Assembly: GCF_964204865.1 (NCBI RefSeq)
Contig: NC_135252.1
Span: 22,589,383 to 22,653,382, forward strand
Length of the DNA stretch: 64,000 nucleotides
Reading direction: 5' to 3'
DNA from: Styela clava
Taxonomy: Eukaryota > Chordata > Ascidiacea > Stolidobranchia > Styelidae
Shown here: positions 25,710-60,980 of the stretch, in pieces
How the letters are laid out: each line of letters opens with the position of its first letter
How positions within the stretch are numbered: position 1 is the stretch's first letter
Program-made: the position numbers and the translations under genes
Notes under the pieces: model-generated
What the model was told of the DNA's origin: nothing
Database searches by the model: none
The model's input: only the letters and a program-made list of their open reading frames with translations

Positions 25710-28700
25710 ATGGCGGCAATTGGAATTGACCTCGGTACAACATTTTCTTGCGTTGCTATTTGCAAGAATGGAATAGTGAGTATAAGATTATTTTTTCGGC
25801 GCGTACTTCAAAAAGTCAAAATCTTGTCTTCAGATTTTCATCACTAGGAGTTCTACAATAAAACTCAGCGTACTTCTTTTCTTTCTTATATATGATTGCT
25901 CTACTTCAAACATTTTATTTTAGTATACCTCTTCGATATCTTCTATACCTCACTATTTTGGTCAGCCTTTTACATACACCAATATACTTTTAATTCTTCG
26001 TACAAAAAAGGTGGTGCAACGAAGGAGGTTACTCTAACATCTTTCAGAATTTAAATTCGGAGCACTTTTTATCACGTATGGGGTTATTTATTTTGTCACG
26101 TCCGCACTAGCTATCTGCTCAGCTGAGACCTCAGCAGTGGCCATGATGGTCATTTGTATCAATAAATTTTAACATCCATCTTATGTTTCGTTTTTATTTC
26201 TTAATTTTTCCCTTCTATTGACATTTTATTTACTGCCTATATACCAATTCCAGGTGCAAATTATACCCAATGAACACGAAAAACGGTTGACACCAGCATA
26301 TGTGGCTTTTACCGAAGAGGAAAGATTATTCGGAGACTCCGCAAAACATCAAGCTCCGTTGAACCTAGCAAATACTGTATATAGTAAGTGCAACATTGAA
26401 AATAAAACAAACAATGAATTATGTTTGAATTATTACCTAATGACGGATTTTATTTTGAACTTTTTTTTCTGAAAATCAAAAAAAGAAATAATATAACAGC
26501 ACTGATCTTTTCAATAACTACAAAAGGATTATACTCGAGTGCAGAAAATATGGTTTAAATGTGTACGTAATTTCTTACTATATCGATATTTCAATTGCGT
26601 CTTCGTTTGATCAACGTCGTATACAGGGTGTCTCAAAAGTAAGTATACACTTTTAATTTTGATTTGCTTTTCAGGTACTCAGCATAGAGCGTTCATTTTT
26701 TTCAGGGAACATAGTATAGATAACCAGTAAAATTTAGATATTGTTTGTATTTTTCAACAACCCACAAAATGACAAGGAGACTAAGCCCAAAAATGAAAAG
26801 CAAATTGGTGATTGGCAAGAAGCATGTAAATCAGTAAGGCAAACTTAGCTCCTCTTTAACAGAGAATTTGAAACTGATTCAGCTTCCTCAAAGCATCCGC
26901 TGCATGGTTTTCTTGATCTTACAGATCAAGTTTCCATGAATTGCGTAATTCTTTGTCGTGAAGTGCTGATTGCCTCAATGTTTTATATGCTTCTTGCCGA
27001 ACGGCAATTTTCACCCCATTTCTTGGGTCAATCTTCTTGTCATTCTGTGGGTTGTTGAAAAATGCAAACAATACCTAAATTTTACTACTTATCCACTATG
27101 TTTCCTGAAAAAATGAACGCTCTAGGATGAGTACCTGGGAAGCTAATCAAAATTAAAAGTGTATACTTGTTTTTGAGACACCTTGTATAGAGAGCCTAAA
27201 CAATAAATAATTGGGTCGATTCGGAAAACAAACATTTGTAACGATTAAATTCCGTTAGTGTGAAGGAATCCAATGAGTACACCAATTGAAAGTAAGAGTA
27301 CACTCAAAATAATAATAAAAATCCTAAGAAGGTCTTATTGCACGCAGTCTCAATTCGTTGTGTAAACGGTAAAGCTTTCAAATACCATTTAAATTAATAA
27401 AGATGAATTTTGCGGTGATAATCGTTACCAATGCGCGATGAACTAAACTAGTATTTCAGGTCCACCGGTAGCACAGTCCATTTTATGTCTCCAGCAGAGA
27501 TTTTGTTATTTGTTGATGTACCCAACATTTTTAGTGACTACATTTTATTTTGCCACGTTGTTTCACCTAAATAAAAATACTTTGGAATTATCTTTTGATT
27601 ACTCACCATCACCAACCACAGTGGCGTGACTGTTATGTAATTTATTTTCATCTTAAATCTGAAAGCGGATGATAGATTTTCACGCTATCGAAGATATTAC
27701 GTTCTGATGAATTTCCTTTGGATCATCTCTGCAAATTATATTATTCATAAAAACACGTTTCTATTTTGTTACCAGTTAATACATGTTTACTGTTTTTGCT
27801 CCACTGTGTAAATAGACTTTTTTAAGTCTATTTAAAACATTTACGAAATTAACGAAAATGAGATGTACCTACTTATGCTGCAAATATGGCTTAGTCAGGG
27901 ATAACTTCCACTTTTGAAATCATTAGCTAAGTTTTTTATTTTTAAAGCTGATATTTTAAACCAATTCTTTTTATACTTCTACAGACATCAAACATATAAT
28001 CGGAAGGTTATATAACGATCAAAAATTGAAACAAGACAAAAAATATTTGGGATATACTATCGAACCTGACAGAAATGGATATTGCCAAATACCAGTAAGA
28101 AATTTTGCGATTCTCTGATATCAATTTTTTGTAATATCGAATAGAATCTGCTTGAAATAAATGTAGATTATATTGTCATTGTAAAATACATATTCTATTG
28201 TCGTTTTAAAAAGCCTCCATTTTGGCATCACTGAGAAATTAGGAAAAGATGAAAACCTTTCCGTATTTATTAGTTACCATAATGCTTGACGATGCATTAA
28301 TTTAATGATTTTTGAGGTTATATTACCTAGTTGTCCTTTAGCGCAAAAAGTTTTCTCTCTCAATACCTGGCTTTGTCATTGCGCTCAATTTCAGGTATAA
28401 GTTCAATTTTTTATTCTAGAATTCGGGAATTTTTATTTGAAGAAGCATAACAAATGTAAAGTTTTTGTTTGCATATTGGACAAACGAGCCAAATTTTTCT
28501 ACCTACCAAATTTTCAGGCTTTTAGATTCCCATATCTACTTGAATTTTTAGATTTGATTCAAAATTAAGTAAATATTGCTACAATTCTCTGGACATAGCA
28601 TCAAATTTATTACTTTAGGATCTATCATTTATATTGACCTAAAAATCACTTTCAATATTAAAAGTGAAAAACTCGCATACTGGTATTTCAAAATTTCACT

Positions 28701-31700
28701 TTTCCAGATATCTAGCTACGGAAAGCAAGTAGAATTATATCCAGAACAAATTACGGCAATGACAATTGTTAAAATGAAAGACATAGCAAAAGCACACGTT
28801 GAGGAAACAGTATCTAGAGCTGTTATTTCCGTCCCCGGATTTTTTAACGAGGCACAGCGCCAGGCTACAATAAACGCTGGTAGGATGGCTGGCCTTGAAG
28901 ACGTCAAGCTCATAACCGAACCAATGGCATCAGCGCTGGCATATGGGCATGATAAACAGGTTAAACAAAATGATAAACAAACAATTTTATAAAAAATTAT
29001 ATCAAAAAGGCAAAATATTGTTATGTTATTAATTAATATCACACAATTTTCATTCTCGCCTAAAAATTGTAATAGCGTGTTTACTGATGATGAAATGGAA
29101 ATTTTTGATTGGATTTGGTAAACAGAAATTTTCAAAATTATAAATTTTATTTTTTATATTAAATATATGTCATTTCTTCAAAACTTCAAAGGCAATGATA
29201 ATTTATAGTGAAATAAACCATAATGTATAATACAAAATTTGGAAACGCTTTTAAGGATATCAATTGCAATTTTTTATTGACACACATTTTTTCTCTTTCA
29301 GCTAAAAACAATTGAAAACATTTTAATTTTTGATTGTGGTGGAGGGACAACCGAAATAAGTCTTGCAAAAATAACAAGCAAAGATGTTAAAATTATATCT
29401 ACGTTTGGAGAAAATTTCGGGGGTCAGTTTATTTTCAAGTTGTTTGATTTTTCTTTCAATATTTTTCATTAATTTGAGCTTATTTTATGAGTATGCGAAA
29501 AAAGGCTCATAATCAAATATTAATAAGTTGCAAGGAGAGCGGATTAATTTAGGGTTTTCAAAAAGGATGAAGATCGCAAAAAAATACCAATGCTTTAAAA
29601 TATTATTCGTCAATGAAATTATGTTTTCCTTCTTGTTATTCGGCCATAATTTAATCGTATCCAATATATCCAATATATTTTGTTTTGTTGAATCACGATT
29701 CAGATTCAGATTCAGATTTTTATTTTCGTCGTGCATGAAATATTGTACAAACAAAATTGATCAAAATATATAACAAAACATCAATTAAAATATACTGGAA
29801 TACAATATTTGCGCAATTGACGAGGAACCGCGAGAGACTACTAAAGTCATCGTGTCAGCGACACCGTGTTTGCTAAGATAAGCAGAAGACGTCAATAACA
29901 TGAAATAATTAATTTTTGAAAATAGAGTGAATACAATTTGGGAAATACAAATCAAAACGACGATGGATCACAATAACCATTGTCTTGTACTAGTTACGAT
30001 ATTCATCAGCAAACAAATATGGATTATTAGAGGATAGGGTAACTTTTTTCTGTGAAAATATTTGAAAGTGATAAAGAGTTTATAAAAAAAATGCCTACAT
30101 TAAAAAATAGGTTTATCGCGAAAGAATGGATTCGTTTATAATTTTTGTATTCGAAAGCTTGCGAATTATGGATCTTTTACGCAAAGCCCACGCCGCTAAT
30201 GTGGAATTTGACAAAAGAAAAAGAAAAACTGTCGTGTATTTATTTTGCAGTTGCGCACAAAGTATCTCACAAAGAGTCTCTTCCTTTATTAATTTAATTG
30301 TGCGTCGACAAAAGAACATTACTACGAAATGTTACGACCATAAAAAGTGTTTAAACTTTTGGATATCTAGTTTTGATTCGTATTTTTGCGATGTTAATAA
30401 TTATACAAATTTGATATGTTCTTGCAACACCGGCTTTGCTTTATCACAATGCCACCACCAAATTTTATTTTCAAGATATCAACGTTAGAGAAATCCCTAG
30501 ATCTGCTAGAGAATATCAAAACAATAATAATTGATTGTACAGTGATACCTCGATAGTCAACCAGTTCATTCGAGTCAAAAATGCTGCGGTATTCCAACTG
30601 AAATTAGGATCTCAAATACCCGAACCGAGCGGAGCTCGCGGCCGAGAGAAATGACGCCAACCGAAAATGAGCTCGATCGATCCTGGCATGCCGTTGGAAG
30701 CTTCCGAATCGTCAATTCGTCCTAATATTAAGCGTTTAGTGAAGCAAAAATGTTTCCAAATATCACTAGGAAAAACATGTATCAAATGTTCTATTTTTAT
30801 TTTATGCTGCAATATAACATCAAATTACCTTCAGCTGTATTGATGCAGTTGTTTATTTTTGTTGATGAAAATCAATAGATATCATGCGTGCGGGCCACTT
30901 ACTCATCGGTACTCGACTGATAAAATGGCCGGCGATAGCAAATGGGTTCGCCCCACCTTGTTTTAAATGAATAATCAACATATGTGTGATAAAAAAGATA
31001 TTTTAAATTTTGTATGTATCTAGGCCAGTGGTTCCCAAACTTTTTCGAGTTGGGACCCACTATTTATTACCACAGCTTATGGCGACCCATTTAAAGTTTT
31101 ATGACATAACACAGAACACAGCAATGGCTAATCATCGCTAAACTATCGTGTTTCCTCGAAAATAAGACCTGGACTGAAAATAAGACATAATTTGAATTTT
31201 GAAAATGATTTTAATTAAACCCTACCTTTGAAATTTAAAATGTGTGGGAGAGGAAGGGTTCAATGACCTGAGTGAGATAAGGTGAAGATTGCACCACTAT
31301 TCAAGATTACCACAATTATGATATTTGACACTTGATTTTTGTATAGAAAATACAAATAGAAACAATGGATGTCGAATTTTATATAATGTTTATTGAAAAA
31401 TCTCGTGATCTTCTACAATGTAAGGTCATTTTTGATAAATGAACACAAAAGACCTCTTCCAAAGAAACATAATGTTATTCTTCAAAAGAAAATAAATCTA
31501 AATCCTATTTAAATTTAGGGTGAAACACAGTAAGAAGTGCTGTCCAGTGTACAAAACTGCTGTGCGTAAAAAAGCCACATGGTCATTCTTTGTGTAGCAA
31601 ATTTTTGTTCCTTTGAGAAGATCGTAAAAAGTACAGATTAGAATTTCACAGACAGAACTTTCACATATAAGAATTTAAATTCAATTTAATTTAATTGGTT

Positions 31701-34700
31701 TTTTTGAAGATTTGCGTATTCGAGTCGCCACCGATCCTAAAAACCAGTGTAATTAATCAAAGCTTTCCACATCTTTTCACGACCCATTAAGATTCCTTTT
31801 GCGACCCACCAGTGGGTTGCGACCCATAGTTTGGGAACCGCTGATCTAGGCTATGTGTATTATTTCTTTAGACTATGTGCATAGACACAACTGATAAAAA
31901 GAACATTGGCTCATTTATCTTAGTCTTTTCAAACAGGTGATGATTTTGACAACCGATTGGTTCTGAAGTACGGTAAAGACTTGGGAATTGAAATTCACGA
32001 TAAAAAAGCAATAACTAGACTGAGAAACGCTTGCGAAAAAGCAAAACAAAGTCTGTCAGCAGCTTCTCGCGCTCGGTAAGCTCATTTATTGCTAATAATT
32101 GCTAACAAAAAATGAATTTTATGATTGGTGCTTGTCCAAATACTTGAAGCATGTAATGATTTTAAGATCTCATTCATAAAGTCTGATAAATATTGGTCCC
32201 AATAGTAGGTAACAAACGAAATGCAAATTCAATTAGGTATTCTCAATGTTTTGCAAGAAATATTTCTGTTCTAGTTTATGTCTGATATATGTCAAACAAT
32301 TTAAATGCGATTTTGTTATTAGGAAACATCATTGATATTTTAAAATCCTTCAGACATAATAAAGCTGAATTGTAATTTATTTTAATTTTATTTTTCAATT
32401 AATTCAACTTTTTTATGTGCAGGATAAAAGTTGACAATTTATACAATAATGAGCCGTTTGAAAGCACTATAACACGAGAAGATTTTGACAAAATAAACGA
32501 GGAATTGTTTGAAAAAGTTACTTCCATTGTTCAAAAAATGTCGAAGTTTTTGACAAAGAATCGTCATAAGGTTTCCTTTAGTGTTCGTCATTCTTTATTT
32601 AAAAGAATGTTTATAATTTTAATCGAAATAAATAATTAATTTTAGAATTTTCATTGCTATATAATTCTATCGCTGTTAAACGCTAATATTAGAGAAAGTT
32701 GCCTCCGACGTTTGTAATCATACTTCTAAGAATAGCTTACCAGATCTATATTTTTTATTATAAATATATTAGGTTGATGAAATAATTCTCATCGGAGGAT
32801 CAACGCGTATCCCCAATATACGGAACATTCTTCAGAATTCATTTAACGTCAAACACTTGAACAGAACAATTAACCCAGATGAAGCTGTTGCATACGGTGC
32901 AGCAGTACATGCGGCTAATGAATTTACTAACTGCAAGGTATTTTATTGGTTAATAGTTTTGTTGCGAAAATAAGCAGAGTATACAGACTTGTCCACGGAA
33001 CGTATTTTTCCGTCTCATTCCGTCTAATACTGTGGCAATTTTTACCCGTTCCACTCATCCCCATCAATGAAACGTTTCGTATAGAATTCCTATTTCCAAC
33101 TCTGGAAAATCACCTAAATAAGGAATCTATGTATAGGTGTCCCAACACAAAATAAAAATAAACAATAGATGTAAACAGCTCTTGGGAAATAAAAAAACAA
33201 CTGAATTTGACGTTTAAATTGCCATGAGAAGTAAAATGTCTGCTGTCCCATTCCATCTCATGAAAGACGACAATCCATGGCCATGTTTGAGAATACATAT
33301 ATATATAGTATTACGCTAAACATATAGTTAACAAATGTTGTATAGTGGAATGCCGTTTTGAAATAATTCCAGAAATAAAATATCGTATTTGTGAAAATTG
33401 TTTTAAAATTTGTTTGCAAATATTGATTTTTAAATTATTCTTCTGTAACTCTTACTTAGTCTTTTGTACTTTAGAAAATAGTCCAGGTTCGAGAGATGAC
33501 TGCTTTGAATAATAGTAATACAGTACCTGAAAATAAAAAACGTAAAATAGAAGAGACGAGTCAAGCAAAATTGACGGAAATGGTATGTAAATGGGCTACT
33601 CAAGTATAAAGATAGTTACGACGAGTAAATAATGTTTATGTTAAGTTCTGAAATATTTTACATGTTGTAATGTTTTGGTGGTGCTCCCGAAGTATGTGCA
33701 CCAAGATGGCTCACAACTTGAACATACTATGTGTACCAGGTTTGGGTTCAGGTTGTGCGCCATCTTGGTGCACATGTTTTCGAAGCGCCGTTTTGGTTAG
33801 TATTAGCCATTAATATTTCTGAAATTTGAAAAATATTTTTTTTCTTAAAACTACATTTTCACAATTTTGAAAAGACAGACGGATATGTTTTATTTATTTT
33901 GCCGAATCAGAATATTAGCAAACTATATAGTTCTCCTGGTATACCGTGTACTAAACCGAAACATTAATAGCGAAGGGGTTAGTCTGATAGGTTAACGCAA
34001 TGAAAACCGCTTTTATCTATGACAATTTTTCTTTACCTCAAATATTTGCCCTTGTTTCAGTTGCAAACCTATTCCTTGCTTGTTGAATAATTCATCTTTT
34101 TGTTTTTCTCCAGACTCAAAAAGTGCTGGAGTTTGATAAACATGACGAAATGCTCAGGGAAGAAAGTAATGCACGGAATAATCTCGAGAAATACGCTTAC
34201 AGTACCAAGAAAAAGGTTCACACAGATAAATACAAAGACAAGTTATCTGCTGAAGACAAAAAAGGAATTTTCCATGAATGTGATCTAGCGATAACATGGC
34301 TTGAAACGAATAAAGTAAGTATTCAAATGATTCACAACATGCTTACTAATGCTTTCAATATACGCCGAAAGTTTTTATTTATAAAATTATGCCGCAGAGA
34401 ATTTCTTGTATTTTACTTTACGTTGGCTTGAAGCAGAGTTCATTAATCTATTGTCGTCAGAAGCATGGAATTTGTACAAATCGCGGTGTTTGGTAACATG
34501 GTTTAGAGGTATAAAATGTTTTTTTTTTTATTTTGAAGCGGAAAAAAGTAGTAGAAAAAAAACTTGAAGAACTGAAGCAATATTGCGAAGCGATATTCGA
34601 TGGAAAGTCAGCAACAAAGGTCGAAATTAGATTATTTTTAGTGCTTGATTCCCTACATTACTATTATAACATACGTTTTTTCATAGTGGTAAAATGTGTA

Positions 34701-37700
34701 AAAATTGATTCTACGTTGTTGATTTAAGTTGGCACCATTAAAAAATCGAAAACTAAAAATTATTTAATCGACAATATTCCTATTGGCAGGATAAGAATTA
34801 CATAATTGGTTACGACCACCTAACTGTTTCTGAGTGATTAGGTAATCGGAGAATTACAGAATCCTCGACTGCGAATTAATTTAATCGTGTCATTTTTAAA
34901 TATATTGATCTTCACAAAACATGAACTTATTTTAAATCCATGATATATATGTTGATTACATTTGAATTTGATGGTAGATGTTACTCTTTCAGACGCTTAT
35001 TACAGTTTTTATTTTTTCAGTTTTAGCAACATCGAAGCAAATTTAGTTTTTTATATAAATAATTTTTAAATAATTTTTCTAATTCAGCAAGTGGTAATGA
35101 GGTCACCATATGTGAGATCGGAGAAAAGTCCAAAAGGTATCGTTACAGGAAAAATGCAGGTGAGATTACAACGTGCAAACAATATTTGTCGTCTTAGATC
35201 ACTGGTTCTCAACCAGTGGCCATGGCCCACCGCTGGGCTATAGATACATTTTCATGTGGGACACAAGCATTTTACAAAAATGTTTATTGAAAAGTTTAGT
35301 TTCATTTGTGTTAATATAGTCAAATTTTAATTGTAGTTGCAATGAATGATGCTGCTGCTTTTCATTATAATTATGAAAGTTAAAGTATTTATTTTTGCGA
35401 AAATAGTCTTGATTTTCTTGTAGTTTTTCCCTTGCATGAGAAAGCTAGTGGGCCACAGAATGTTTATGCAACAAAAGTGGGCCACGAAAGAAAAAAGGTT
35501 GAAACACTCCCGTAGTGTTTGTTCCAGTTAGGTCATTATTTCATTCCGATATTTCTTAATAGTTCTATTACGAGTTCGGGGATGGTCTGTGTTAGCAAAG
35601 TACATATACCCCTTTCTATAAGTTTCAGTCTCTTTACAAAACTTGATGTGAGGCAGGTGACCAAAGTAGTTATACCTCCATATTGGTACACGCACTTCTG
35701 GAGCGCCCTTCATATAATTTTGGGAAAAGCAGAACTTTATATTTGACCCTTTATAAATCTTTACCAAACAGTCAACTCGTGCAAATAAATCTACTGAACA
35801 AGAACTGGTGAAATTTAACGCAATCAATGATCTTCATAAATATGTTCAAAGTGTTCAATCCCATTCAATATTCGGAAAACTTACGGAATTTATGACGTCG
35901 GACATCAAAAAGAAAATAGATATCAAATGTCGTGAAATAGAGCAGTTTTTTAACGCAAGCCAGGTATGTTTTCCTCGCTATATCACCACTACCCTTCTAA
36001 TGTATTTATTTTACATGGGATAATGGCGTTTATTCGCTGCAAATATGATTGTTGACTCTTATAAATAATTTAAAAAGTAATATAATTATGGAAAAATATA
36101 TATTCCTATTTATTGTTTTGTGTTAAATGTTTAGGATATGGAAGTCAAAAAGATAAATGGCAAAAAAATGGAATTAGAAATAATTGTAGAAAGTATACTG
36201 CACAGATTGCAGCATAACCAGGTGAATAGCATTTTAAATAGTTTATTTTTAACCTTGTCGCTCTCTTCATATGTGCTCAAGCAGTTTCCTGTTATTAACA
36301 AAGATATAAAACACCTTATAAATATATGAGAAACGTTTATAGAATTCAACAAAGAAAGTTTCCACCTATTTTTATTATCAAAATTTTTCCATAAATATTT
36401 ATCTCAATATTATGTGTTCCAAATCATAAATGAAATTATTTCTGAAATGTAGCAAATGTACGTTAGTTTATTTAATTTCGTCCGAATGGTTTTGATTTAT
36501 AGATTATTCTTTACCGATCTTTAAAACAAATACATCTGAGAAACAATTGAAGCATAGAAAATCTTTAAAATACCGTATTTTCCGGCCAATAAGTCTACCC
36601 AGTGAATAAGACGAGGCCCGTTTTTGAGCCTGAAAAATGGATTTTCGCATATATTCTGCCGATAAGACGGTTAGTAAAATCGCATCAACATCGTAATCTC
36701 AAATTACCATGCAGAGGCTTTTGGGCGGTCGCCGCCTTTGCGCATTGGTTAAAATAGCCTATAATAACTTTTTCTTGTAGCGTAATATTCAATCCATAAC
36801 AATTACGAGAATTCGAACTGTCTTTCAATTTAATTGTGTTCAACCCAACTCGCGTTTGCGTCCACCATATAAGAACATTACCTATCTAAAATAACACGGC
36901 GATGATAAAAACGTGGGGATGCTATCGCCAAAGGTATTTGGTATTTTATGAATTGAATAATAAGGCGACACCAAAAAAATTATCATACTCGCCTAATAAG
37001 ACAACCCCCAAAATCAGGCCAAAAATTTGGGTTATTCGCCGGGAAATACGGTATAGTTCCGAAAATAAATTTTATATATGTTTATATAATCTTATCACAG
37101 GAAGTCGACAAAAAGAAGAACGACGAGTACGTAAAACTTCTCAAATATATTTCTTATCTCAGGAAGCCAGAGGAAGGACAAAAACCAGGCAATTTTACAT
37201 TTCAGTACATGGATGACATTAAATCCGCGTGCGATGAAACAGAACAATGGCTTAAAAGTAATTATGTACGTTTCATTCAAGTCCGATAGTACTAGAAGAC
37301 CGTTGTAATAATTTTGAATAGGTTACCATTATGCCCAAATTTATCTAATGACAATTCGCATTTTTTGGGGCGAGAGGTGCCCTAGAGTGAAATCTGTTTA
37401 TTGTTATTTCAAATAATAGTAGTCATTAGTTATCGATTTTAATCGGTAAGTATGTTGATAGGTATTTGTCTGTATGTCTGTCTGTTTGTCTGTTAGATGC
37501 ACGCGATATCTCACGAAAGCTAGATTGAATCTGCTCCAGATTTTGCATGTGCATTCATCTTATCTCGGACCAGAAGCCTATTGATTTTGGGCGAATTATG
37601 TCGTATAATTAGCGAGTTATCAATCAATTATTGATATAGTGATCTAGATTTTTGTAAAGCGAGAGAATTTTGAGACCCGCCGAGTGTGTGTGTGCGATGC

Positions 37701-40700
37701 GCAGTGCGCAAGTTACAAGAGCGGATGAATCGAAACTGCAGTTTCTGTTTTGGGGGATCCCCCAACTATCGATCGATAAGTCTTCGGTTTCCAACCAATA
37801 TTCTCGTTCACTATTCAGTTTTTATCTGTACATGTTGTATGAAATCGTAAATGCCACCGTACAAAAATATTTGTATCTCATGACTAGTTTTAAATCTAAA
37901 ATTACATGCAGTTATGATGAGACATTGCCATAAGCAATGCAAAAAAAATCGATGTTAGGTACTTCAATTGTTCAAGCTTTAAATTATTGTTTTAGAATTC
38001 GGTATCAGTGGAAATAATCAAGTCCAGATACACGGAATTTCAATACTGTGTTGATAAAATCAAACGGAGATATGAAGAATTCGAAATGGTTAGAGTTATG
38101 ATGATGAATATCTTGAAAAATAGCTCATACAAGACGAATTGAAACAAATACATTATTGGGTCATCACTTCAACGATTTCCGTAATTTTTTCTGAAGTGAC
38201 AAGAGGTTGAATATTTGATGTTCATTTTTTGTTATGATACTCAATCCATAACAACAGCCTAAAATTTCGATCTAAATTTTTTGCAATGGAGGCGCGCCTT
38301 GTATTTCTTTTCTTTAGTTCATGTTCATTCGCGCCCCATCATATGAAAATATTTATATTGTTTAAATGTTTTGGTTTTGAATCAAATGAGTCTTTTATTA
38401 CAGAAAGAAAGGGACAAAGAAGTGAAACGTGCCGAAGTTTACAGTAGTTTCAAAAAGTTCACCCGTAAAGTCATAAAATATACTAATTCCGAAAAAGGTA
38501 AAAACGATATAGATGATGAATATCTAAGAAATATGGAACATCAATGTGTAGAAACAACAAATTGGATTGAAAAGAATTACGTAAGTAATAATTTCACTAG
38601 GAAAAATAATTTGTATTCCAAAATTAATTTTATTTTATATTAAACTTTATTCACGATAACTAATTATTTTATTCAACATCAAAAATTTTAAACAAAAATA
38701 AGTAATAGGATATGTTTGTGTATTTTTTGTGATATTAAAGTATGTTTATAATTATTTTCAGCATGTAATATCACCAAGAAAAATGAATTCTGAAGAACTT
38801 AAACTACGAACAAAGATAACTGAAATCTTGAGAGGATTGAAAGCTAGCCAAGAGGTAAGAACCAAAATTTTTTAATACCGCAACGTGAACGATAATACCC
38901 AATAATAAATTTATTTAGTATTGATAAATTTCCTACAGTCTGCTCACCATATTTCTAAGTATACCTTTACAGTATATAGACCTATAATAATTGGATGAAA
39001 TAACAGCAAAAAAACATATATTTTTTACACGAAGTGGTAAATACTGAGAGAATTGCAATTTTTTATTATTCAACTATAAAATAATTGTTATTTTTTTTAT
39101 GAATTTAAAAGATCAAATGTTTGTAAAGAAACCTATAACGAGATTATCGGTCGGAGACCGAAGACGTATCGATCGACCGCGAAAAAAAATAAAAAAAAAT
39201 AATTAATTAATTAATTAATAACTCTCTAATTATACGATATAATTGATCCAAAATCAATAGGCTCCTGGTCCGAGATATGATGAATGCACATGCAAAATTT
39301 AGAGCAGACCTTGCTTTCGTGAGATATAGCGTGCATCTAACAGACAATCAAACAGACAAAGAGACAAATAACTATCAACATACTTACCGATCTTAAAAAT
39401 GATAAGTAATAATATTAGTCGTACTATAAACTAGTCGTCTACTATGAGGAAAATTCAAAATTTATTCCTTTCTTTTGGGACGGTTTGATGAATGCACATG
39501 CAAAATTTAGAGCAGATTCAACCTCGTTTTCGTGAGATATCGCGTGCATCTAACAGACAATCAAACAGACAAATACCTATCCACATACCTACCGATCTAA
39601 AAAATGATAAGTAATAATATTAGTCGTACTATAAACTAGTCGTCTACTTTGTGGAAAATTCAAAATTTATTCCTTTCTTTTGGGACGGTTTGATCACGGT
39701 TGTTTGCAAGATATGAATGTGGCAGTAGTCCGTGACAGTATAGATTTCAGATGGAAAGATAAATTTCGAAAAAAGATATCATGACCTGAAAATATCTTTC
39801 TAAGAATTTTCAGAGTTATTAAAACTGATATCGTATCTGTTTTTCATTTGCCTTCAATAGAATTATTTTCTAAAAAAGAGATTTTTGTATTCCATGAAAA
39901 CTTCAGATGTTCACGGCAGAAATGCAACTTCGTAATCAAGAATACAAGAAATTAATGGATTACATCGAAAATATTTTGGACTTCGTTGCTACTAAAAAGG
40001 GGAATGACAACATAACTAATGAGTATCTTCTAAAAATAAATCAACGATGCACTGTAACGCGAGAATTGTTGGAGAAATATGGCGTACGAACAATTTATAA
40101 ATCTTGTTTAAGTCTGATTCTAGATTTTGTTACTTTGATTTAAAAAAATTATGATTATTGTTTTTTGTTTCAAAACAAAACGGAATCGATAAACATAAAC
40201 CACATTCCTGTAACTTTTTGCGAGAAAAAATTATTAATAATTTCCTTTATCCTTTATAATGGTGTATATGTAAATATGTAAATAAAATTGTTTATAATAT
40301 GAAAAGTTACGCATATTTGGTGAAATATGTTTCAGGATAAACTTACCAGAAACGAAATTACTGTAAAAGCAGATCAACTTGAATTAAAAATTAATGAAAT
40401 CTGGACAAAAATGCAGGAAAGAAAACAGGTAAAATACTAATGCAGCAATGCACTAAAGTTGATTTAAAACACAGTTGTTTTCAAACAAACACAAATTTTA
40501 TTAAATTTTGCTAGAATTAAGTTATCACAGCAATATTTCCGAATAAATGATTGGAGAAAGGAGTTTTGGTAATTGAATTGCATAATTTACAGCAATTGCT
40601 GCATCTGCAAACTTGTAGGGTTAGGTTGAGTGACTTGCTTTTTTTTCACAAAGTTAAGAATAAATAGTATTATTATCATTCGTAGATAGCAACTGATGAA

Positions 40701-43700
40701 GAAAAACGGTGTCGTGAGGCATATGATAAATTAACAACCTATATTAATGGCATGATCAAATATATTGATTCCGAACGAGAGAACGACTGTATATCTGTAC
40801 AATATTCTGAAAAAGTAAAGCGTCAGAATTTGGAGTGGAAAAAGTGGCTTGATACTAATTACGTAAATATTACTTATTTTTCTTATATTATTTCTTTTAA
40901 AAAAATAGGGTTATCACAACTTTCCGACTATGAAACTTGTCTTTTATTATTATATTATTATGACGTTCTATTTAAAAATATTATAATTTTTATTATTTCC
41001 CAGTGATAACGATTGGCATACAAATCACCATTATTTTTCGACGTTTTTTTTTTTAGAATTATCTCACTTCGGACGAAATATTTTCAGAAAAATCCAGATT
41101 AGAATCGGAAAATAGTAAAGTTCTAATTGACATAAAAGCAAGAAAAAAGGTAATTTTTAAATCTTCTTAAGGTGTGAAATAAAAGTTTAATACAGATCAA
41201 AATTGTTTAAATTTAATTTGTCTCACGCTTATCAAATATTTATTCAATAAATGAGACACATATATACAATATTAACACAATAATTAAACTTGCAAAACTG
41301 GCATCCATTTTCGTTTCCATTTTCAATAGCAAATTGTTTTTTTTGGTATTTCTAAAACTTCCACTATTTGGATTATAAAGCAACCAAGAAAATTTTATAA
41401 AGAAATTTATATTATTCAAATATAATGTAATATATGATATTTTTGTACTTATAAATATTAAATATGAACAAAGATAACATAAGATATTTTATACAAAATT
41501 ATATTTAATGCAAACAATGTGGTTATTACAATTATATAAACTGTATATTCTTATGATTTGTGAAGGCTGAGATGGCTGAAAAATTAGCCAAAATCAAAAA
41601 CAAAACGGCTATAAACAATTTTATGAAGTGTATATCTGACGTGGAATCCTGTAGATATTTTTATCCGTACGAATTGAATGCGTCTGATAAAAAAGAAATT
41701 GAAGAAAAATGCAAATATTGGAAACAGTGGCTTTCTGAATCTTCCGTAAGTTTGAGTTTTAAATTGTATAAGAATTTGTTAATATTCAAATTCAACCTAA
41801 ATATACTAATTTTTCAATTGCTAACAGAGCCCTTGTATTTTCTTTGCAAAGATATTGTGAATTTTTCAAATTATATTAAGGATTGTAACAGCCTATTATT
41901 TAATATGTTCTTTAATCTCTTGATATGTTCTTTGACTTTCGTAAATGCAATTTTATTGAACGGTTATCTTGAAATATCAAATTAAATTGATTAATTTTCA
42001 ATGTCGCTTATGAAAACTCCATTAACCGTAGTTCAACCTGAAACATAATAACGTGTATTAAAAAAATACCAAAGACAATGATTGTCATCAATTATACAGA
42101 AATATTTCTCTTCGGATCACATAGAAGCATCTCAAATTGAACTGGAAGACTTTGCTCAGATAATTTTTAACAGATTAGGTGAACGACAACAGGTAATATT
42201 CTAAATGTGTAGTACACAAATGAAAATATAAATACATCATGTCATAAATATATATTTATTTTTTATATAATTTTTCTTTTACATACATTTATATAAATAA
42301 AAAATGAGGATAAGTTTTCGTTTTCATGACTTGTAAATGTGTGGCTTATTAAAAATTAGGTTTTAAATCATGAATTTCAATATATTTTTATAATATTTTT
42401 TTGTCCATGCAATAAAAGCAATAAAATTAGATTAAAATCTGAGCTGCTAATTTTCAGCACCCGCTAACCAAAAATACTATGAGTTGAACTGTTTCTCCGA
42501 AACCAAACCAAATGAAATATTCCATGTTTTATTAGCTTGAAGTAAGAAAGCAACGACAAAAACAATTGAAAGAAGCAGCAAAAAATCTTGAAACTTATAT
42601 TGAAGATGTTAAACAATTTTTGTGGTCTGATAAATACAAAGATTTGATTTCCCGTGAATACAAAAACTGGATTTATGACGTCTGCAATCGGGCAGATCGA
42701 ATAGCTTCATCTTACAAGGTGCTACTTAATTACTGTATATAGTTTAAACTAAAATGGCATATACTATTGCGAAAAAGAATATGTGATATTTTTATGCAAA
42801 TATTGCTGATTCAGAGTTACGGATTATCGGATATAGTAAGCAGCCACGAAGAATTACAGGAATCTGTATCCAAATTGTGTGACGAGTTGGATCGCAAGAA
42901 AAGGGTTAGAATTTTTTCCTGTTTCTTATGCATATATATAATGTATTTTGTCATAACTTTTATTTAGCTCTAAGCACAATTATTCAAAACACCAAGTATT
43001 GACAAAAATATTATCTACGTCATTCTTACCCCCAATACTCCATTAATTTAGTTACTAGTCGCAGAAAGACGAAAACGTCAAGAAGCCGAAGAAAAAGTCT
43101 ACGATTACATTAAATATGTCAGATCTGTTTTGACTTCAAACGATTACTTCATGAGAAAAGTACCACCAGCTGTGACTTATTGTGAGAAAGTTGAAAAATA
43201 TCTTCATTTTGAGCGGGCTGTAAGATATAATTTTATATTCATGATGTAAATATTCGAAAATACTGATCTAATTTGTATCCATAAGGATTTCATTGTATAG
43301 CGAAACCGCGAGCATCTTTTTAAAAAGTAACAAATTAAATAGTGCGTTCTCGTAACTTTGCATGCGGAGATTCTTTGTATCACAAGTTTCGAACAATCCA
43401 TGAAAAAATTCTTTATAATAATATGCTATTCCTATTTTGCCTTGGTCATAACAATAAATCCTTTTTTGATTCGCGTATTTTGTATTTATACAGTTATAAC
43501 GTTTATAGTCAATAATATATTTGCATGCTAACCACCCATTAATATTTTGTCACCAACTTTTTTTTTTTGAAGACTCTATCAGTAGAACGCATTGAAGAAA
43601 TGCATAAAAATATTTCTGCAGCGTTTCAGAATGATTGTCGCAAACTCAACATAAAGTTTCAGGTATAGTTGAGAGTGTTTCTTTAAATTTTTATTATTAT

Positions 43701-46700
43701 AGTCTATATATATCACTGAAATATTACTTAATAACATGTTATCTGAGCTGGGTTTTTTTTCGAAGTTGTTAAGAAACTTTCAATGCTGTTGCGAATTTGT
43801 TCGTATGAGTTCATTATTGCAAACTTCTACAATTACACAGAATTTAGTAATGTGATGCAAATCAATTGAGTTGCATGATTTGGATAGAAAATGATAAACT
43901 CCTTTAAATAACACTTTTGGGAGCTTAGGACGTGCCAAAAACGACCGAAACAGTCTGAACCTAGCAAATATTTGAAAGTGCAAAAATACAATAAATCCGT
44001 AAAAACTTTCAAAAACTAGCTAAACCCTATCTTTGTATCATCTAATGCTAATTAAGTTTTTTAAACTAAATGTATTGTAATTCAGAGAACAACGGTAACA
44101 AAATATATTCCGCAAAACCATGAACACATTAAACAAAACAAATCGATTAAGAAGGTTCGAAAGTTCACTGACAAAATGAGAGAAAGGATTAGAAATGAAC
44201 GAGCAATGTCTATATCGGAGAAAGAAAAATTATTGAAACTGTGTCAAAGTAACGATGAATGGTGCACAAAAAGACCTGTGAGTATATACATCATAGTAAG
44301 AGGTTATTTTAAATAGCATGGAAATAATTACATTATACTGGGTTAAGTCAAATTTGTCATCCGTGCGTTCATTGTTTAGTTGAATTATATGCACGTTTTT
44401 TTTTTATCCCAACATAAATTCCGCACAACTTATTATTAGATTGCAGTTTTACGGAACAAATAAATATATATTTTTCTTATAGAATTGCGACGTTTAAAAT
44501 ACTTCTAGTAACCAACTAATATTCCGCATTTTCCCTTCTGTCTATATATCAGAATGCCACAAAACATGAAGCGGACCGCAGAATAGAGATATTACAAGGA
44601 CAATGGGATCATGTTATTCATTCTTTGCAAATAAGGGCAGAGGTAATGAATTAAAATCTTTTTCACGAAAAACTGAAATTTCAATGAATTGTGTACAAAT
44701 GAAGATAATTTTTAAATTTTTCAGGGAATATACGAGCACATTAATGATTTATGCAATATTTTTTAGGCTGTAGATCGAAGACAATCTGCGAATTTTGGAT
44801 ATTTTTCATATTCGGGTTCTCGGAAGCAACCGCCAACATCTCGTTATAAATATCATAGTGAATATTCCCCTTCAGAGTACAAGGTAGGACACAATATTTT
44901 CCCATACATACCCGAAGTAATTTTGATCTTGTCGAACGTTTTATTCATCTAATACGTATATTGTTTATTTTAGTTATTAAAAGTAAAACGATAAGTTATA
45001 GATTTTTGTTATCAATTTTTTCTGTGAATTCTAGTCCAATTGTTATGAATAAATTTTGATATATACTCGAAAACATATGCGTACACATGCGTATATATTT
45101 ATCTAATACCCTATTATTTTCAAAATATTAGGCACTCTGAGAAATCTCAATCAAGTTATTCATACCAAATAGATTCAGGTTTAAAATATCATTCACTCCA
45201 TTAAATAATGCAACTCGTTCGAAAACAAAATAAATTTAATCGTCTTATATTGGAATGCCAATGTTTTTATTAGATGAGCACAGTAAATATTTGATTCATA
45301 GTCGTAGCTTTATGGAGATTTTTTTGTGAAAAGAAAATAATTTATATGTATCTAGTGCAGGCGTGTCGTGTGTAACATTTTTGTCGGTGGGCCATATAAC
45401 CAATTTAAAAATCTAGCTGGACCATACAATAAAAGATTATTTTTTCCATGTTTACGAAAAAACATTAGCGATAACCATAGGTACCCGAAAAAGTCAATGG
45501 GCTGGGGCCGAGTTGTAGTTCCCTGGACGCCTATTGCACAGCCCTGATCTAGTGATAGTAACGTATTAGGCGTAAAATGTTCAGAATCGAATCGATTAAT
45601 TTGTTCCGAATCAAATCGCGAATACTTGGGACATATAAAATTATATGCAACTTCCTTTTTGTATTAGATCTTCCAGACACATAAATTACTGAAATCATAG
45701 AATACAAGCAGATTGCTAAGCGTTCACACACAATAAAAGACACGTTTCCATAAATAACTATAAAAAAGAGTCATATGTTCAAATTTCGTTGAAAAATATG
45801 GCTTCGATGAACAATCAAGAAATTTACCTCGACCATCAGCCGGAAAAAAAGTTAGCGGCTATTCGAAATTTTGCTCTGAAGCGATTCAAAAATTTACTAT
45901 TCGATTCGAAATGCCCAGTCCTAGTAAAACGTGCGTAAAATTTTTATTTTATCGAAGCTTGTAGCGATACTTAGTCGTTTAGGACATTGTATTGCCTTAT
46001 CATGCATTTATGCATTCATCCATCATCAACATAATTGAACAATTAATTTACCCTTTCGAATTCAGTAAAATTATATTAATGCTGGATTGATTCCGACTGT
46101 TTGTTCTTATGAAAACGAAAATAAAATATGTTTATCCAGTATTCATCTATCGGTATTTATACATTATATAATACCATACATTTTTTTCATGATCTCTTTT
46201 TTACATAGGGCAACGTAAAAAGTGGATCAAAAAAATCAATTTCAACTGGAAAAGATTCTTCATACGGGCAAAGCCAATATTCGAGTGAAAAAGTTCGTAC
46301 AAAGCTATATTTAGATTTAGTCAGAATTCATGGAAAAAGAATTTCAAAAAAATTTATTACTGTAGCATATTTAATCTAGTATTCTATATCGGTGTATACA
46401 ATGTTTGACTACTTGTTTATTTGGAGCCTGTACTAATACATTGCCATTTTATTAAATAGGGCACCGGAAAAAGTGGTTCAAGACAATCCCATTCAAGAGA
46501 AAGCTCACAAGCAAAAACATCTACATACGATGAAAGCCGATGTTTGAGTGAAAAAGTTAGTAAGCAACTTATTTTAGAATTAGTCAGGAAGCGTCAAAAA
46601 GAATCCTTGAAAATCTTGAAAAATAAGTACAACAAATATAATTCAATAACCTTTCTCAATCTTGGAATATGTTTTTTAAATATTCAAGCAATTCAAATAA

Positions 46701-48688
46701 ATAATTAATATAAACTTTCGCATTCAGTAAAATTAAACGAAAAGTTGAATTGATTTTACAAGCTAAAATATAACGAAAATATATGTATCCAGAAATAGTA
46801 AAGTGTTCAACTAGCGGTGTATACAATGTTTAATCAAATATTTATTTGAGCTTGTATCAATAAATACATGTTTTACAAGATCTTTTTCATATACAGGACA
46901 CTGGAAAAAGTAGATCGAAAAGATCAAATTCTGAGGAAAGCTCGCCTAAAAAAGATTCCTCATACGGGCAAAGTCGATATTCGAGAGAAGAAGTTAGTAC
47001 GCAACTATTTTATGATTTAGTCAGAATTCATATAAAAAGAGTTCCGAAAAAATTCATTACGGTAGCAAATTTAATTCTAGCTCATTTGTCGATTCTGGTA
47101 TATATTTTCCTTATATCCAAGCATTTCAAAACCAATTCACGAATTTTTATTTCTTGACTTGATATTAAATTTTTCTAATGCTTTTGCTAGTGCATTCAAA
47201 ACTAAATGTCATCTTCTATGTCATGGTGGTCCACGTCTGTCGGTGGCGTCGTCGGCCACAATATTAGTTTTGTGTTGTTTGCGGGCCACGTTGGCCCCAA
47301 GAAATTTGATTATTTTTTTTCATGAATGAAGCGCTCTCGAACACCGATAGCATGCCGTTTTGGATTATATTTTTTTAGCCCCGACAAAACTTGCAGAAAT
47401 ATCAAGCATTGGGGAGGCTTTGTTTTCCGTTAGCAATTTTATTTTTCTGTTCACGGTGATTACAAAACAACAATGCTTCAGAGAGTATTGTGCCAGGCGA
47501 ATCCAATTTTCTATGTAGGTATTAAAATATTGATTACGAATATTGCCGAAGGAAAAGATCAATTTGTGAAAGTTTCAGGTCATCCCAGGGTGCCGAAATT
47601 GAATACCTGAATTTTAAATCAATTCAGGATGGCCGTGCACACTATCAATTACTCTACAAAAATCAGTTTTGTCCACTGACCGACTCAGTTATCCCTGTCA
47701 CGAGTAAATTCAACGACTTTTTAACGATCAATATCGCGACAATGTATAAGAATATTTTTCGATTCATTATATAACGAAAATATACCATGGGTATTTTAGT
47801 TACCACTAATTGTTTTCTATATATCAGTAAAGGTCACGCGGGTCATAGATAATGACACAGCGGATTACATGTAGCCCGCGGGCCCAGGTTGAGACCCCCT
47901 GTTCTAAGTGATCATAAAAAATAACAAGGCAATGGAACACACTCATCGGTATTTTCTATGTCATGGGAATTTATCTAAATTATACTCTTATATGCACTCA
48001 TACAGCCTAAAAGTAGCAAGAAGGAACTGATTGCCTTAGCAAAAGAGGCTAGGAGCAAAATACACGATCCCATGTATAACGAAGAGGTATCGAAACGAGA
48101 CAAGAATGAAATTATTCACAAAGAGAAAAAAATAATAAATGGCGTATGGGTAAGAGTAAAGTTTTGTATCCTCATCTCATTTTAATATATCAATTTGATT
48201 ATATGCTTTATAGGGATTCCCTTAAAATAAATCGTTCTAGCAACTGGAGTCTTAAATACTTAGCAGAAATTGTCCTGCTTATGCTGATTTGCTGCAGTTT
48301 TACGTGCCGCATTCCATTATTTCTCATCCACTCAGTTTAATTTAAAAAAAAATAATTATTTTTTTCTTTTGTAAATAATTTTATAGTTATAGATAATCCC
48401 ATATGCGACATTTATGTAATAAAATACCAATCACGCACACATTTAATTACTAATATTGTATTTTGCAGACCTTTTATATATATTCTGTAGTAAGTCATAC
48501 TATATAGAATAATGAAATTTAATTTTTTTTTGTAGTAAACTTTGATTTTTTTACGTTTCTTTCAGACAAACCGAACCGCTGAAAAAGAACTACAGGATTT
48601 AAAGACCTTCTGTAAGGATATTTTTGGATCCATCGATTATAATGCTGATCCTAAAAGAAAAGACACTAGGAGGCGTTGGTACTATTGA
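25710..48688 (+). CDS. Gene C: giant Hsp70-derived protein, NBD fused to about 11 tandem lid modules
   Basis: Thirty-six exons splice in one frame to about 1,561 residues. NBD exons: 25710-25775, 26254-26383, 27985-28094, 28708-28959, 29302-29422, 31937-32075, 32423-32570, 32773-32937. Linker: 33475-33582. Helical part: 34114-34314, 34539-34619, 35088-35159, 35772-35963, 36135-36221, 37101-37265, 37996-38088, 38404-38580, 38762-38854, 39907-40083, 40336-40428, 40686-40862, 41057-41149, 41566-41745, 42100-42192, 42536-42718, 42815-42904, 43052-43219, 43573-43662, 44086-44277, 44553-44642. Low-complexity: 44767-44883, 46209-46292, 46460-46555, 46897-46992. End: 48006-48149, 48566-48688 (TGA). 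The NBD has [40 protein letters not shown] and [12 protein letters not shown]. The catalytic Glu is kept, but the DLGGGTFD loop is altered. No beta-sandwich exon exists between NBD and lid. Every helical exon is phase 0-0 and has a multiple of three bases. The only family it clearly matches is Hsp70; classical peptide binding is unlikely. Confidence 0.85.
26624..27185. mobile_element. Mariner-like foldback element, copy 1
   Basis: TA-CAGGGTGTCTCAAAAGTAAG opens the element and its reverse complement GAGACACCTTG-TA closes it, 562 bases later, giving a TA duplication as in Tc1/mariner. The inverted repeats are long and extend into CATTTTGTGGGTTG words near both ends. ATGACAAGGAGACTAAGCCC in the left half could be the remnant of a transposase start, but the frame soon stops. 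It lies in gene C intron 2, and a second copy sits in gene D intron 8. Confidence 0.75.
29696..29740 (-). repeat. LINE-like 3' tail with TCTGAA repeats, copy 1
   Basis: On the minus strand, CATGCACGACGAAAATAAAA is followed by TCTGAATCTGAATCTGAATC. The copy at 50417 shares the ACGAAAATAAAA plus TCTGAA-repeat ending. Such short tandem tails are typical of CR1/L2-type non-LTR elements or their SINEs. Only the end is preserved here. Confidence 0.6.
31026..31843. mobile_element. Non-autonomous hAT element with perfect 8-bp target duplication
   Basis: Terminal inverted repeats CAGTGGTTCCCAAAC and GTTTGGGAACCGCTG (one mismatch) bound 818 bases. Both sides carry the identical 8-bp duplication ATCTAGGC (31018-31025 and 31844-31851). 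Subterminal GGGACCCAC / GTGGGTCGC words are also inverted. There is no transposase. It sits in gene C intron 5. The CTAG core fits the NTCTAGAN-like preference known for Charlie-type hATs. Confidence 0.92.
33475..33582 (+). other. Gene C exon 9: degenerate linker plus NLS-like motif replacing the beta-domain
   Basis: The 36-codon exon starts [11 protein letters not shown], which aligns loosely with the KERLQLLDVTPL linker exon of gene D, then diverges. It contains [10 protein letters not shown], a good match to a monopartite nuclear localisation signal. In genes B and D the corresponding position is followed by about 130 residues of beta-sandwich; here the next exon is already the lid. The flanking introns (32938-33474 and 33583-34113) contain no hidden beta-domain that I could find. 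Nuclear targeting is an inference. Confidence 0.7.
33680..33790. mobile_element. GGTACTCCCG-family MITE, copy 2
   Basis: GGTGCTCCCGAAGTATGTGC on the left is mirrored by GCGCCATCTTGGTGCACATG and TTCGAAGCGCC on the right. This is a short version, about 110 bases, in gene C intron 9. It shares ACCAAGATGGC with the copies at 56583 and 59906. Confidence 0.75.
35200..35508. mobile_element. Degenerate hAT-like element
   Basis: CACTGGTTCTCAACCAGTGG at the left and GTGGGCCACGAAAG...GGTTGAAACACT at the right form imperfect inverted ends with GGCCCAC-type subterminal words like those of the 31026 element. No target duplication was found. The right end abuts a GGTACTCCCG MITE. Confidence 0.5.
35505..35707. 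mobile_element. GGTACTCCCG-family MITE, copy 3
   Basis: It starts ACTCCCGTAGTGTTTGTTCC, includes AGTTCTATTACGAGTTCGGG, and ends CACGCACTTCTGGAGCGCCC. The long form (about 200 bases) resembles copies at 49064, 53583 and 56583. It lies in gene C intron 12, just upstream of exon 13. Confidence 0.7.
36571..37053. mobile_element. TACCGTATTTTCCGG MITE
   Basis: The left end TACCGTATTTTCCGGCCAAT and right end GCCGGGAAATACGGTA form terminal inverted repeats over 483 bases. AATAAGAC words recur near both ends. This terminal sequence style is common in animal non-autonomous DNA elements. No coding content. Located in gene C intron 14, ending about 50 bases before exon 15. Confidence 0.75.
37435..37810 (+). 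repeat. Dispersed repeat, plus-strand copy (gene C intron 15)
   Basis: It carries CGGTAAGTATGTTGATAG, a TGTCTGT-rich run, TTAGATGCACGCGATATCTC, TTTTGCATGTGCATTCATC and AGCCTATTGATTTTGGG. The same words in the same order occur reverse-complemented at about 39140-39420. The repeat class is unknown. Confidence 0.75.
39140..39420 (-). repeat. Dispersed repeat, minus-strand copy (gene C intron 18)
   Basis: This is the reverse complement of the 37435-37810 repeat, differing by scattered substitutions and an AATT microsatellite at about 39198-39220. Its left part overlaps the first unit of the 208-bp tandem duplication. The pair lies in inverse orientation about 1.5 kb apart, so a transcript could fold back on itself. 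Confidence 0.7.
39278..39690 (+). repeat. 208-bp tandem duplication in gene C intron 18
   Basis: Two adjacent units begin TGATGAATGCACATGCAAAA at 39278 and 39486. They remain nearly identical through TAGTCGTACTATAAACTAGT to GGGACGGTTTGAT. The second unit lacks a few bases around AACAGACAAAGAGACAAAT. Confidence 0.85.
44767..46992 (+). other. Gene C Ser/Tyr/Gly-rich segment with triplicated exon
   Basis: Exon 44767-44883 ([18 protein letters not shown]) is followed by three related exons: 46209-46292, 46460-46555 and 46897-46992. All three begin G/D-x-(G/V)-KSGS or GKSRS. Exons 1 and 3 share DSSYGQSxYS; exon 2 has [12 protein letters not shown]. Downstream intron sequence is also duplicated (GTTAGTA..., TTTAGTCAGAATTCAT, GGTGTATACAATGTTT), so whole exon-plus-intron blocks were copied. 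The product is a basic, serine/tyrosine-rich, probably disordered spacer with RS-like dipeptides. Confidence 0.75.
45358..45546. mobile_element. Short hAT MITE with perfect 8-bp target duplication
   Basis: CAGGCGTGTCG on the left and CACAGCCCTG on the right bound 189 bases. Both flanks carry ATCTAGTG (45350-45357 and 45547-45554). GTGGGCCATAT and the right-end GGGGCCGAG resemble hAT subterminal regions. It lies in gene C intron 31. The target again has a CTAG core, as for the element at 31026. Confidence 0.85.
47222..47901. mobile_element. Probable hAT-like element
   Basis: The right end reads GGTTGAGACCCCCTG (reverse complement CAGGGGGTCTCAACC) with GTAGCCCGCGGGCCC just inside. The left end CATGGTGGTCCACGTCTG is a weak partner. 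The flanks TTCTATGT and TTCTAAGT differ at one base and may be a decayed 8-bp duplication. No coding content. Located in gene C intron 34. Confidence 0.5.
48006..48688 (+). other. Gene C terminal lid-like module (exons 35-36)
   Basis: Exon 48006-48149 (48 codons, [16 protein letters not shown], ending INGVW) and exon 48566-48688 ([16 protein letters not shown], ending RRRWYY then TGA) repeat the long-short lid pattern. The last exon resembles the final lid helix of genes B and D. The C terminus is basic and aromatic, with no EEVD, KDEL or membrane anchor. Confidence 0.75.

Positions 48689-52645: not shown

Positions 52646-60980
<8,335 letters not shown>

Follow-up and report, generated by a model that had tools for sequence, protein, structure and literature searches.

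Giant Hsp70-derived genes in the tunicate Styela clava predicted to join an ATPase head to an array of lid modules

Hsp70 proteins are among the most conserved protein machines, and the lid is mostly regarded as a cover for the client pocket. The array genes described here share with the canonical cytosolic Hsp70s (HSPA8, HSPA1A) an actin-like ATPase domain with most nucleotide-site residues and a lid of helices B, C and D, but they have no SBD-beta, DLLLLD linker, J-domain arginine or EEVD, and they carry 11 to 28 lids where the canonical proteins carry one. Hsp110 and Grp170 are likewise large, non-canonical Hsp70s; they keep SBD-beta with insertions (a long loop) and one extended lid region, whereas the array genes are without SBD-beta and repeat the lid. 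HSPA13/Stch and the truncated Hsp70s of plants have also lost C-terminal Hsp70 parts, yet we know of no lid array in them. Spectrin repeats are tandem three-helix bundles, an arrangement only proposed for the lid array, and a profile built from 17 modules matches alpha-spectrin (1u4q) weakly (E 0.0035, no single stretch passing by itself); the clear homology of the modules, however, is to Hsp70 lids. P0003, a Styela clava Hsp70-like protein of 666 aa from the same Styela clade as the array gene studied here, consists of an ATPase domain and one lid without SBD-beta, and has a charged tail in place of the array.

Judged from its predicted products, the architecture of the array genes is new and its parts, an Hsp70 ATPase head and repeated lids, are known: in the course of evolution the pocket would have been lost and the lid copied until there were as many as 28. 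If these genes are expressed as predicted, they show a lid that functions on its own as a repeat unit, they provide a natural test of an ATPase without a client domain, and they show a chaperone made into a giant repeat protein by way of symmetrical exons.

The array gene of the window

The stretch of DNA analysed, called the window throughout, comprises 64,000 nucleotides (C3:22589383-22653382) of a 377-Mb assembly of Styela clava, a tunicate of the family Styelidae. Its array gene is named B and its neighbours in the window A, C and D, while E and F denote paralogues elsewhere on C3. The features of the window are these:

25710..32937, plus strand: exons 1-8 of gene B, the Hsp70 ATPase (nucleotide-binding) domain, residues 1-377, recognized by Pfam HSP70 (E 5.6e-120, residues 3-370), exon phases, splice sites and key residues
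33475..33582, plus strand: exon 9, a 36-aa linker exon at the place of the SBD-beta exons of an ordinary Hsp70, by comparison with neighbour C, which has those exons
34114..34619, plus strand: exons 10-11, the canonical first lid, a long and a short exon (33% against the lid of C across 76 aa, 29% against that of A across 85 aa)
35088..35159, plus strand: exon 12, 24 aa, also part of the NCBI 541-aa model and not lid-like by exon mapping
35563..35595, plus strand: final exon of the NCBI 541-aa model, 10 residues and a stop, within intron 12/13
35772..36221, plus strand: exons 13-14, lid module 2 by exon mapping and lid profile; the inner Met of exon 13 is the start of the NCBI 990-aa model
37101..44642, plus strand: exons 15-30, lid modules 3-10 by exon mapping and lid profile, long/short pairs in phase 0, with module 9 matching the lid least well
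44767..46992, plus strand: exons 31-34, a Ser/Tyr/Lys-rich insert in the spliced sequence, three exons of which resemble one another
48006..48688, plus strand: exons 35-36, terminal lid module with C-terminal RRWYY, common to paralogue E by module comparison
About 22397-10064, minus strand: gene A, with SBD-beta and a single lid; Gln at the J-domain arginine, by eye
52646-60957, plus strand: gene C, an ordinary Hsp70 with SBD-beta and a single lid; Ser at the J-domain arginine
5836-792, minus strand: gene D, with an ATPase domain in the array-gene clade; its 3' part lies beyond the window

The first-pass annotation of this DNA had proposed 36 exons in one frame with canonical splice sites, encoding about 1,561 residues laid out as a nucleotide-binding domain, a short linker and a chain of lids. 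The exon model is confirmed: all 36 exons were located within 25710..48688 on the plus strand, exon 1 begins at an ATG and exon 36 closes at a stop, acceptors are AG and donors GT throughout, and the spliced product contains 1,561 codons and a stop with no internal stop. The layout likewise holds, and NCBI joins head and array in two paralogues. When splice sites were scored with a matrix built from those of gene B itself, the donors of exons 7 and 11 and the acceptors of exons 13 and 27 came out weak. From exon 8 to exon 36 every exon length is a multiple of three, with phase 0 at both ends. One canonical lid and 10 lid-like modules (exon pairs 13/14 to 29/30, plus 35/36) give a count of 11; exons 12 and 31-34 are interspersed among them and are not lid-like.

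Lid homology, paralogues and the unity of the gene

The first exon pair had been read as an Hsp70 lid, a reading upheld by its matches to the lids of neighbours C (E 2e-7) and A (E 3e-9) in a set of 13 sequences. For the later pairs, a profile of 36 array modules (10 of gene B and 26 of paralogue E, the first lid excluded) was aligned by hhalign with 81 canonical lids, giving a probability of 98.1 and E 1e-13 over 91 columns, compared with a best E of 0.029 among 50 column-shuffled controls. The canonical set was obtained by motif excision from 124 proteins, with 6 from Styela omitted and 81 of the remaining 118 yielding a lid. Taken singly against the 81-lid profile, 34 of the 36 modules were equalled by at most 2 of 200 shuffles of their own sequence (7,187 of 7,200 shuffles scored); the weaker ones are B9, whose score 38 of 200 shuffles reach, and E25 (6 of 200). 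Searched against PDB sequences, the 17-module profile returned Hsp70 or BiP lids as the top 15 of its 27 matches, from E 2.2e-9, and one module by itself returned Hsp70 lids as its top four matches (best E 0.032). Pfam gave no match above its curated cut-off on the array of gene B. The array modules are homologues of the Hsp70 lid (the SBD-alpha helix B-C-D bundle); the profile-profile alignment and the PDB lids sustain the earlier estimate of about 11 modules with the later pairs derived from the lid. Each array module corresponds to human SBD-alpha(537-610), which comprises distal helix B and helices C and D and was studied as an isolated fragment in PMC7294093.

A genome search with the array of gene B gave further, weaker matches on its own chromosome (best E 9e-4), most of them at 20.27-20.55 Mb. 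Gene E was predicted from 200 kb of fetched sequence with exon profiles and the chaining of phase-0 exons, a few exons being placed by hand. It occupies the minus strand of C3 from 20585718 to 20536916 and contains 65 exons, 2,964 aa and 28 lid pairs with no internal stop, in the order of eight ATPase exons, a 24-residue linker exon, the first lid twice and 26 more long and short pairs, closing with the same terminal pair as gene B. The protein database, queried with gene E only after its prediction, holds LOC120342837 isoform X2 (P0122), one NCBI protein of 3,007 aa with PF00012 and 99% identity over 100% of the predicted gene. LOC120343174 isoform X2 (P0123; 2,714 aa, PF00012) fits gene F, on the plus strand from 20326500, and LOC120343202 (P0124; 1,898 aa) is an array annotated without an ATPase domain; these three were the only matches to gene E at E 0.001 among 5,232 candidates. 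With the array of gene B as query, a single match was returned, the uncharacterized Styela clava LOC144420993 (100% identity over 85% of the query), from the 8,000 scored candidates that shared most words with it; a further search scored 7,999 candidates chosen in the same way. In these word-based searches, which drew candidates by shared short words from about 5.8 billion proteins, the layout of ATPase head and lid array was found in Styela clava only. In the open-licence literature we found no paper naming LOC144420993, LOC120342837, LOC120343174 or LOC120343202, and none on repeated Hsp70 lids among the matches listed, most of which were unrelated uses of 'lid'.

At the window locus itself NCBI splits gene B. 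P0002 (541 aa) equals exons 1-12 extended by 10 residues of the intron behind exon 12, P0001 (990 aa) runs from the inner Met of exon 13 through exon 36, and their sequences equal the same spliced product as the exons of gene B. In-frame stops and a separate gene for the later exons had been named in advance as evidence against the single-gene model; no such stop is present, but NCBI does file exons 13-36 here as a separate protein. A pair of genes, one a truncated Hsp70-like gene of 541 aa (exons 1-12) and the next a lid-array gene of 990 aa (exons 13-36), would agree with the standing of P0002 and P0001 as separate NCBI proteins, with the annotation elsewhere of an array without an ATPase domain (P0124), and with the weak acceptor of exon 13. 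The details of the split nevertheless argue against it, and we regard two genes as improbable. The start of P0001 at the inner Met halves a lid module; upstream of exon 13 the frame stays open for five intron codons before a stop, and the inner Met is the first in it; and the 541-aa model closes with a 10-residue exon inside an intron. A 15-base core of that exon has a few further copies across the window and the paralogue regions analysed. Paralogues E and F, moreover, are unsplit, and the first lid and array of E match those of B in order. A single gene at this locus is thus, in our judgement, highly probable, and we judge the NCBI split to be a model artefact because a paralogue is unsplit and agrees with gene B in the order of its modules, the first lid among them. 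That one transcript covers the locus is supported by the paralogues rather than by direct observation. A chance fusion of neighbouring genes was suspected at first and dropped given the paralogues annotated as one protein.

The order of modules was compared between B and E by reciprocal best matches. Nine pairs were obtained (B1-E1, B2-E12, B3-E18, B4-E17, B5-E19, B6-E20, B9-E26, B10-E27 and B11-E28) with one inversion, for which the chance is 2.5e-5 if the pairs are independent; B7 and B8 are without a reciprocal partner in E. Since B1 alone of the nine paired modules lies on the ATPase side of the NCBI cut, this collinearity speaks for a common order of the arrays rather more than it bears on the cut, for which the unsplit paralogue is the test. 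For each of E3 to E16 the best match is B2, and from these matches gene E seems to have grown by the copying of a B2-like pair.

Genes E and F are found on opposite strands (C3:20320001-20420000 and 20500001-20600000). Their ATPase exons agree at 95-100% identity and most of their array exons at 77-100%, and two pairs of array matches recur about 81 kb apart. This likeness and spacing would follow from a recent duplication of the segment, or from haplotype copies retained by the assembly. A plus-strand array with the terminal pair stands at C3:20503880-20532251, and the modules near its beginning match those with which P0124 starts; no ATPase exon is among the matches listed between 20331402 and 20581517, for which 73 of 481 candidates were scored. 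This array might be the distal part of gene F. C3 measures 25,584,882 bases in this assembly and 25,587,678 in the source of the protein database, which is perhaps another assembly version.

ATPase head and origin of the layout

With the ATPase fold and most nucleotide-site residues in place, gene B belongs to the Hsp70 superfamily. The equivalents of D10, T13, K71, E175, D199, K271, S275, G338, G339, R342 and D366 are kept in P0002, P0003, P0122 and P0123; D10, T13, K71, E175 and the others we take to be the Hsp70 nucleotide-site residues. Among these four proteins the T204 equivalent is kept only in P0002 (gene B) and the D206 equivalent only in P0003, gene B having Glu at 206 and genes E and F having Lys at 204 and Glu at 206. 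Judged by these residues, the heads of the array genes are likely to bind nucleotide.

The features by which an Hsp70 grips its clients are a different matter. SBD-beta, the client pocket, is absent from gene B, where only the 36-aa exon spans the distance from ATPase domain to lid, and from gene E, where a 24-aa exon takes its place. A DLLLLD-type interdomain linker was not seen in the alignment of P0002, P0003, P0122 and P0123. The J-domain arginine (DnaK R167, HSPA8 R171) is replaced by Lys in gene B, by Cys in P0122 and P0123 and by Glu in P0003. PMC7289447 describes R171 as invariant and central to J-domain action. Because the SBD-beta-bearing neighbours C (Ser) and A (Gln, by eye) have lost R171 too, its replacement is a trait of the wider cluster and not special to the array genes. 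Nor does gene B carry a C-terminal EEVD; its product terminates in RRWYY. With SBD-beta, DLLLLD, the J-domain arginine and EEVD gone, gene B is no ordinary client-binding Hsp70, and since both pocket and DLLLLD linker are lost, a normal client-gripping cycle by the array-gene heads would be hardly possible and is very unlikely.

In a tree of ATPase domains, B groups with E and F (91/92), and the three fall within a clade with P0003 and gene D (100/100), apart from the canonical Hsp70s, A and C; P0003, D and B form long branches, and the grouping of P0003 with D is possibly false according to a warning of the tool. Neighbour C shows what the ancestral exons may have been like: two exons of 162 and 231 nt, both in phase 0, encode SBD-beta, the long lid exon after them measures 192 nt and is also in phase 0, and the last exon starts at 60879. 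An ordinary cluster Hsp70 would have lost its two symmetrical SBD-beta exons, after which the pair of long and short lid exons would have been duplicated repeatedly. We infer this likely origin from the exon phases; because the exons are in phase 0, neither the loss nor the copying needs any repair of the frame. P0003 has a single lid and no SBD-beta, so the pocket may have disappeared before the array arose.

Proposed function and genomic setting

Our leading interpretation, held with a little more than even confidence, is that gene B comes from a small gene family of Styela clava whose giant products derive from Hsp70 and consist of a head attached to a rod of lids that acts as scaffold, spacer or tether. 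The first-pass annotation had suggested an ATP-switched rod, scaffold or holdase, or a disaggregase-like tether. In the most likely form of the product, a head that binds nucleotide is carried on a rod of three-helix lid bundles, the rod and the continuity of its helices being suggested by composition. Each bundle would consist of distal helix B, C and D, and helix D of one module probably continues into helix B of the next. Pro and Gly are rare at the module junctions (11/768, compared with 17/400 at the C/D loop; Fisher p 0.004), where charged residues are frequent (46% KRED); a helix D continuous with the following helix B should look like this. Such a rod could offer many lid-type contact surfaces, and a precedent for the lid as a docking surface comes from Ssb, whose lid is needed for ribosome binding according to PMC5123055. 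The head would be expected to turn over ATP slowly and independently of J-proteins, or to use ATP as a cofactor for folding and anchoring.

Besides the two-gene reading, two others were weighed against this scaffold, spacer or tether. The array could be a redox-tuned holdase whose modules, by analogy with the human lid, would be glutathionylated on oxidation and unfold in series to expose sticky helices. Glutathionylation at Cys574 and Cys603 unfolds the human Hsp70 lid, as stated in PMC7294093, and the Cys574 equivalent is Cys in 32 of 36 array modules, compared with 51 of 81 canonical lids, making it the best-kept column. Yet Cys603, the more reactive of the two, is not kept, other array columns have Cys in at most 2 of 36 modules, and a buried small core residue explains the conservation equally well; the unfolded human lid, moreover, acts by plugging SBD-beta, which is absent here. 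We consider a holdase unlikely. That the genes are decaying by-products of a runaway tandem cluster, without function, would fit the size and repetition of the cluster and the fast evolution of the arrays, for which dN/dS between E and F is 0.59 (0.37-1.01) over 679 codons in 15 of the 52 array exons of E, hand-picked as collinear, ungapped matches in F. This value, with its upper bound of 1.01, is compatible with neutrality. The ATPase domain and linker, however, give 0.24 (0.11-0.48), so that the head is constrained by purifying selection between E and F; no internal stop occurs in the 36 exons of B or the 65 of E, and module order is largely conserved between B and E. Decay thus strikes us as the most improbable of the readings.

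A broader proposal, to which we give little credence, would make these proteins a new class of ATP-headed molecular rods in which the lid has become an independent unit of construction, comparable to the repeats of spectrin or titin, with variable arrays serving as scaffolds. Because every array exon is in phase 0, any subset of modules could be spliced in or out with the frame intact. The fast-evolving arrays would then be scaffolds variable in length and surface, even combinatorial ones, with possible roles in stress, the tunic, immunity or self-recognition, and the ATP state or the retained cysteine might set their stiffness.

In the 1 kb upstream of their start codons, genes B, C, D and E have no heat-shock element (at most one mismatch). 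Gene A has two weak elements there, which overlap, and six, two of them perfect, precede the ordinary intronless Hsp70 L002, our single control. The array genes may not be heat-induced, a comparison that is suggestive only.

The window lies inside a very large Hsp70-like gene cluster at C3:19.2-22.75 Mb, which flags Styela clava as the bearer of a large and unusual Hsp70 complement. By hand count, at least 49 of the 94 matches listed fall in this interval and span the exon-4 region of the ATPase domain, a lower bound because 73 of 481 candidates were scored and gene D of the window is missing from them. Ciona savignyi has eight Hsp70 genes according to PMC6079275. Gene D itself carries an apparent diverged SBD-beta exon after its ATPase domain and, by eye, has Asp at the E175 equivalent.
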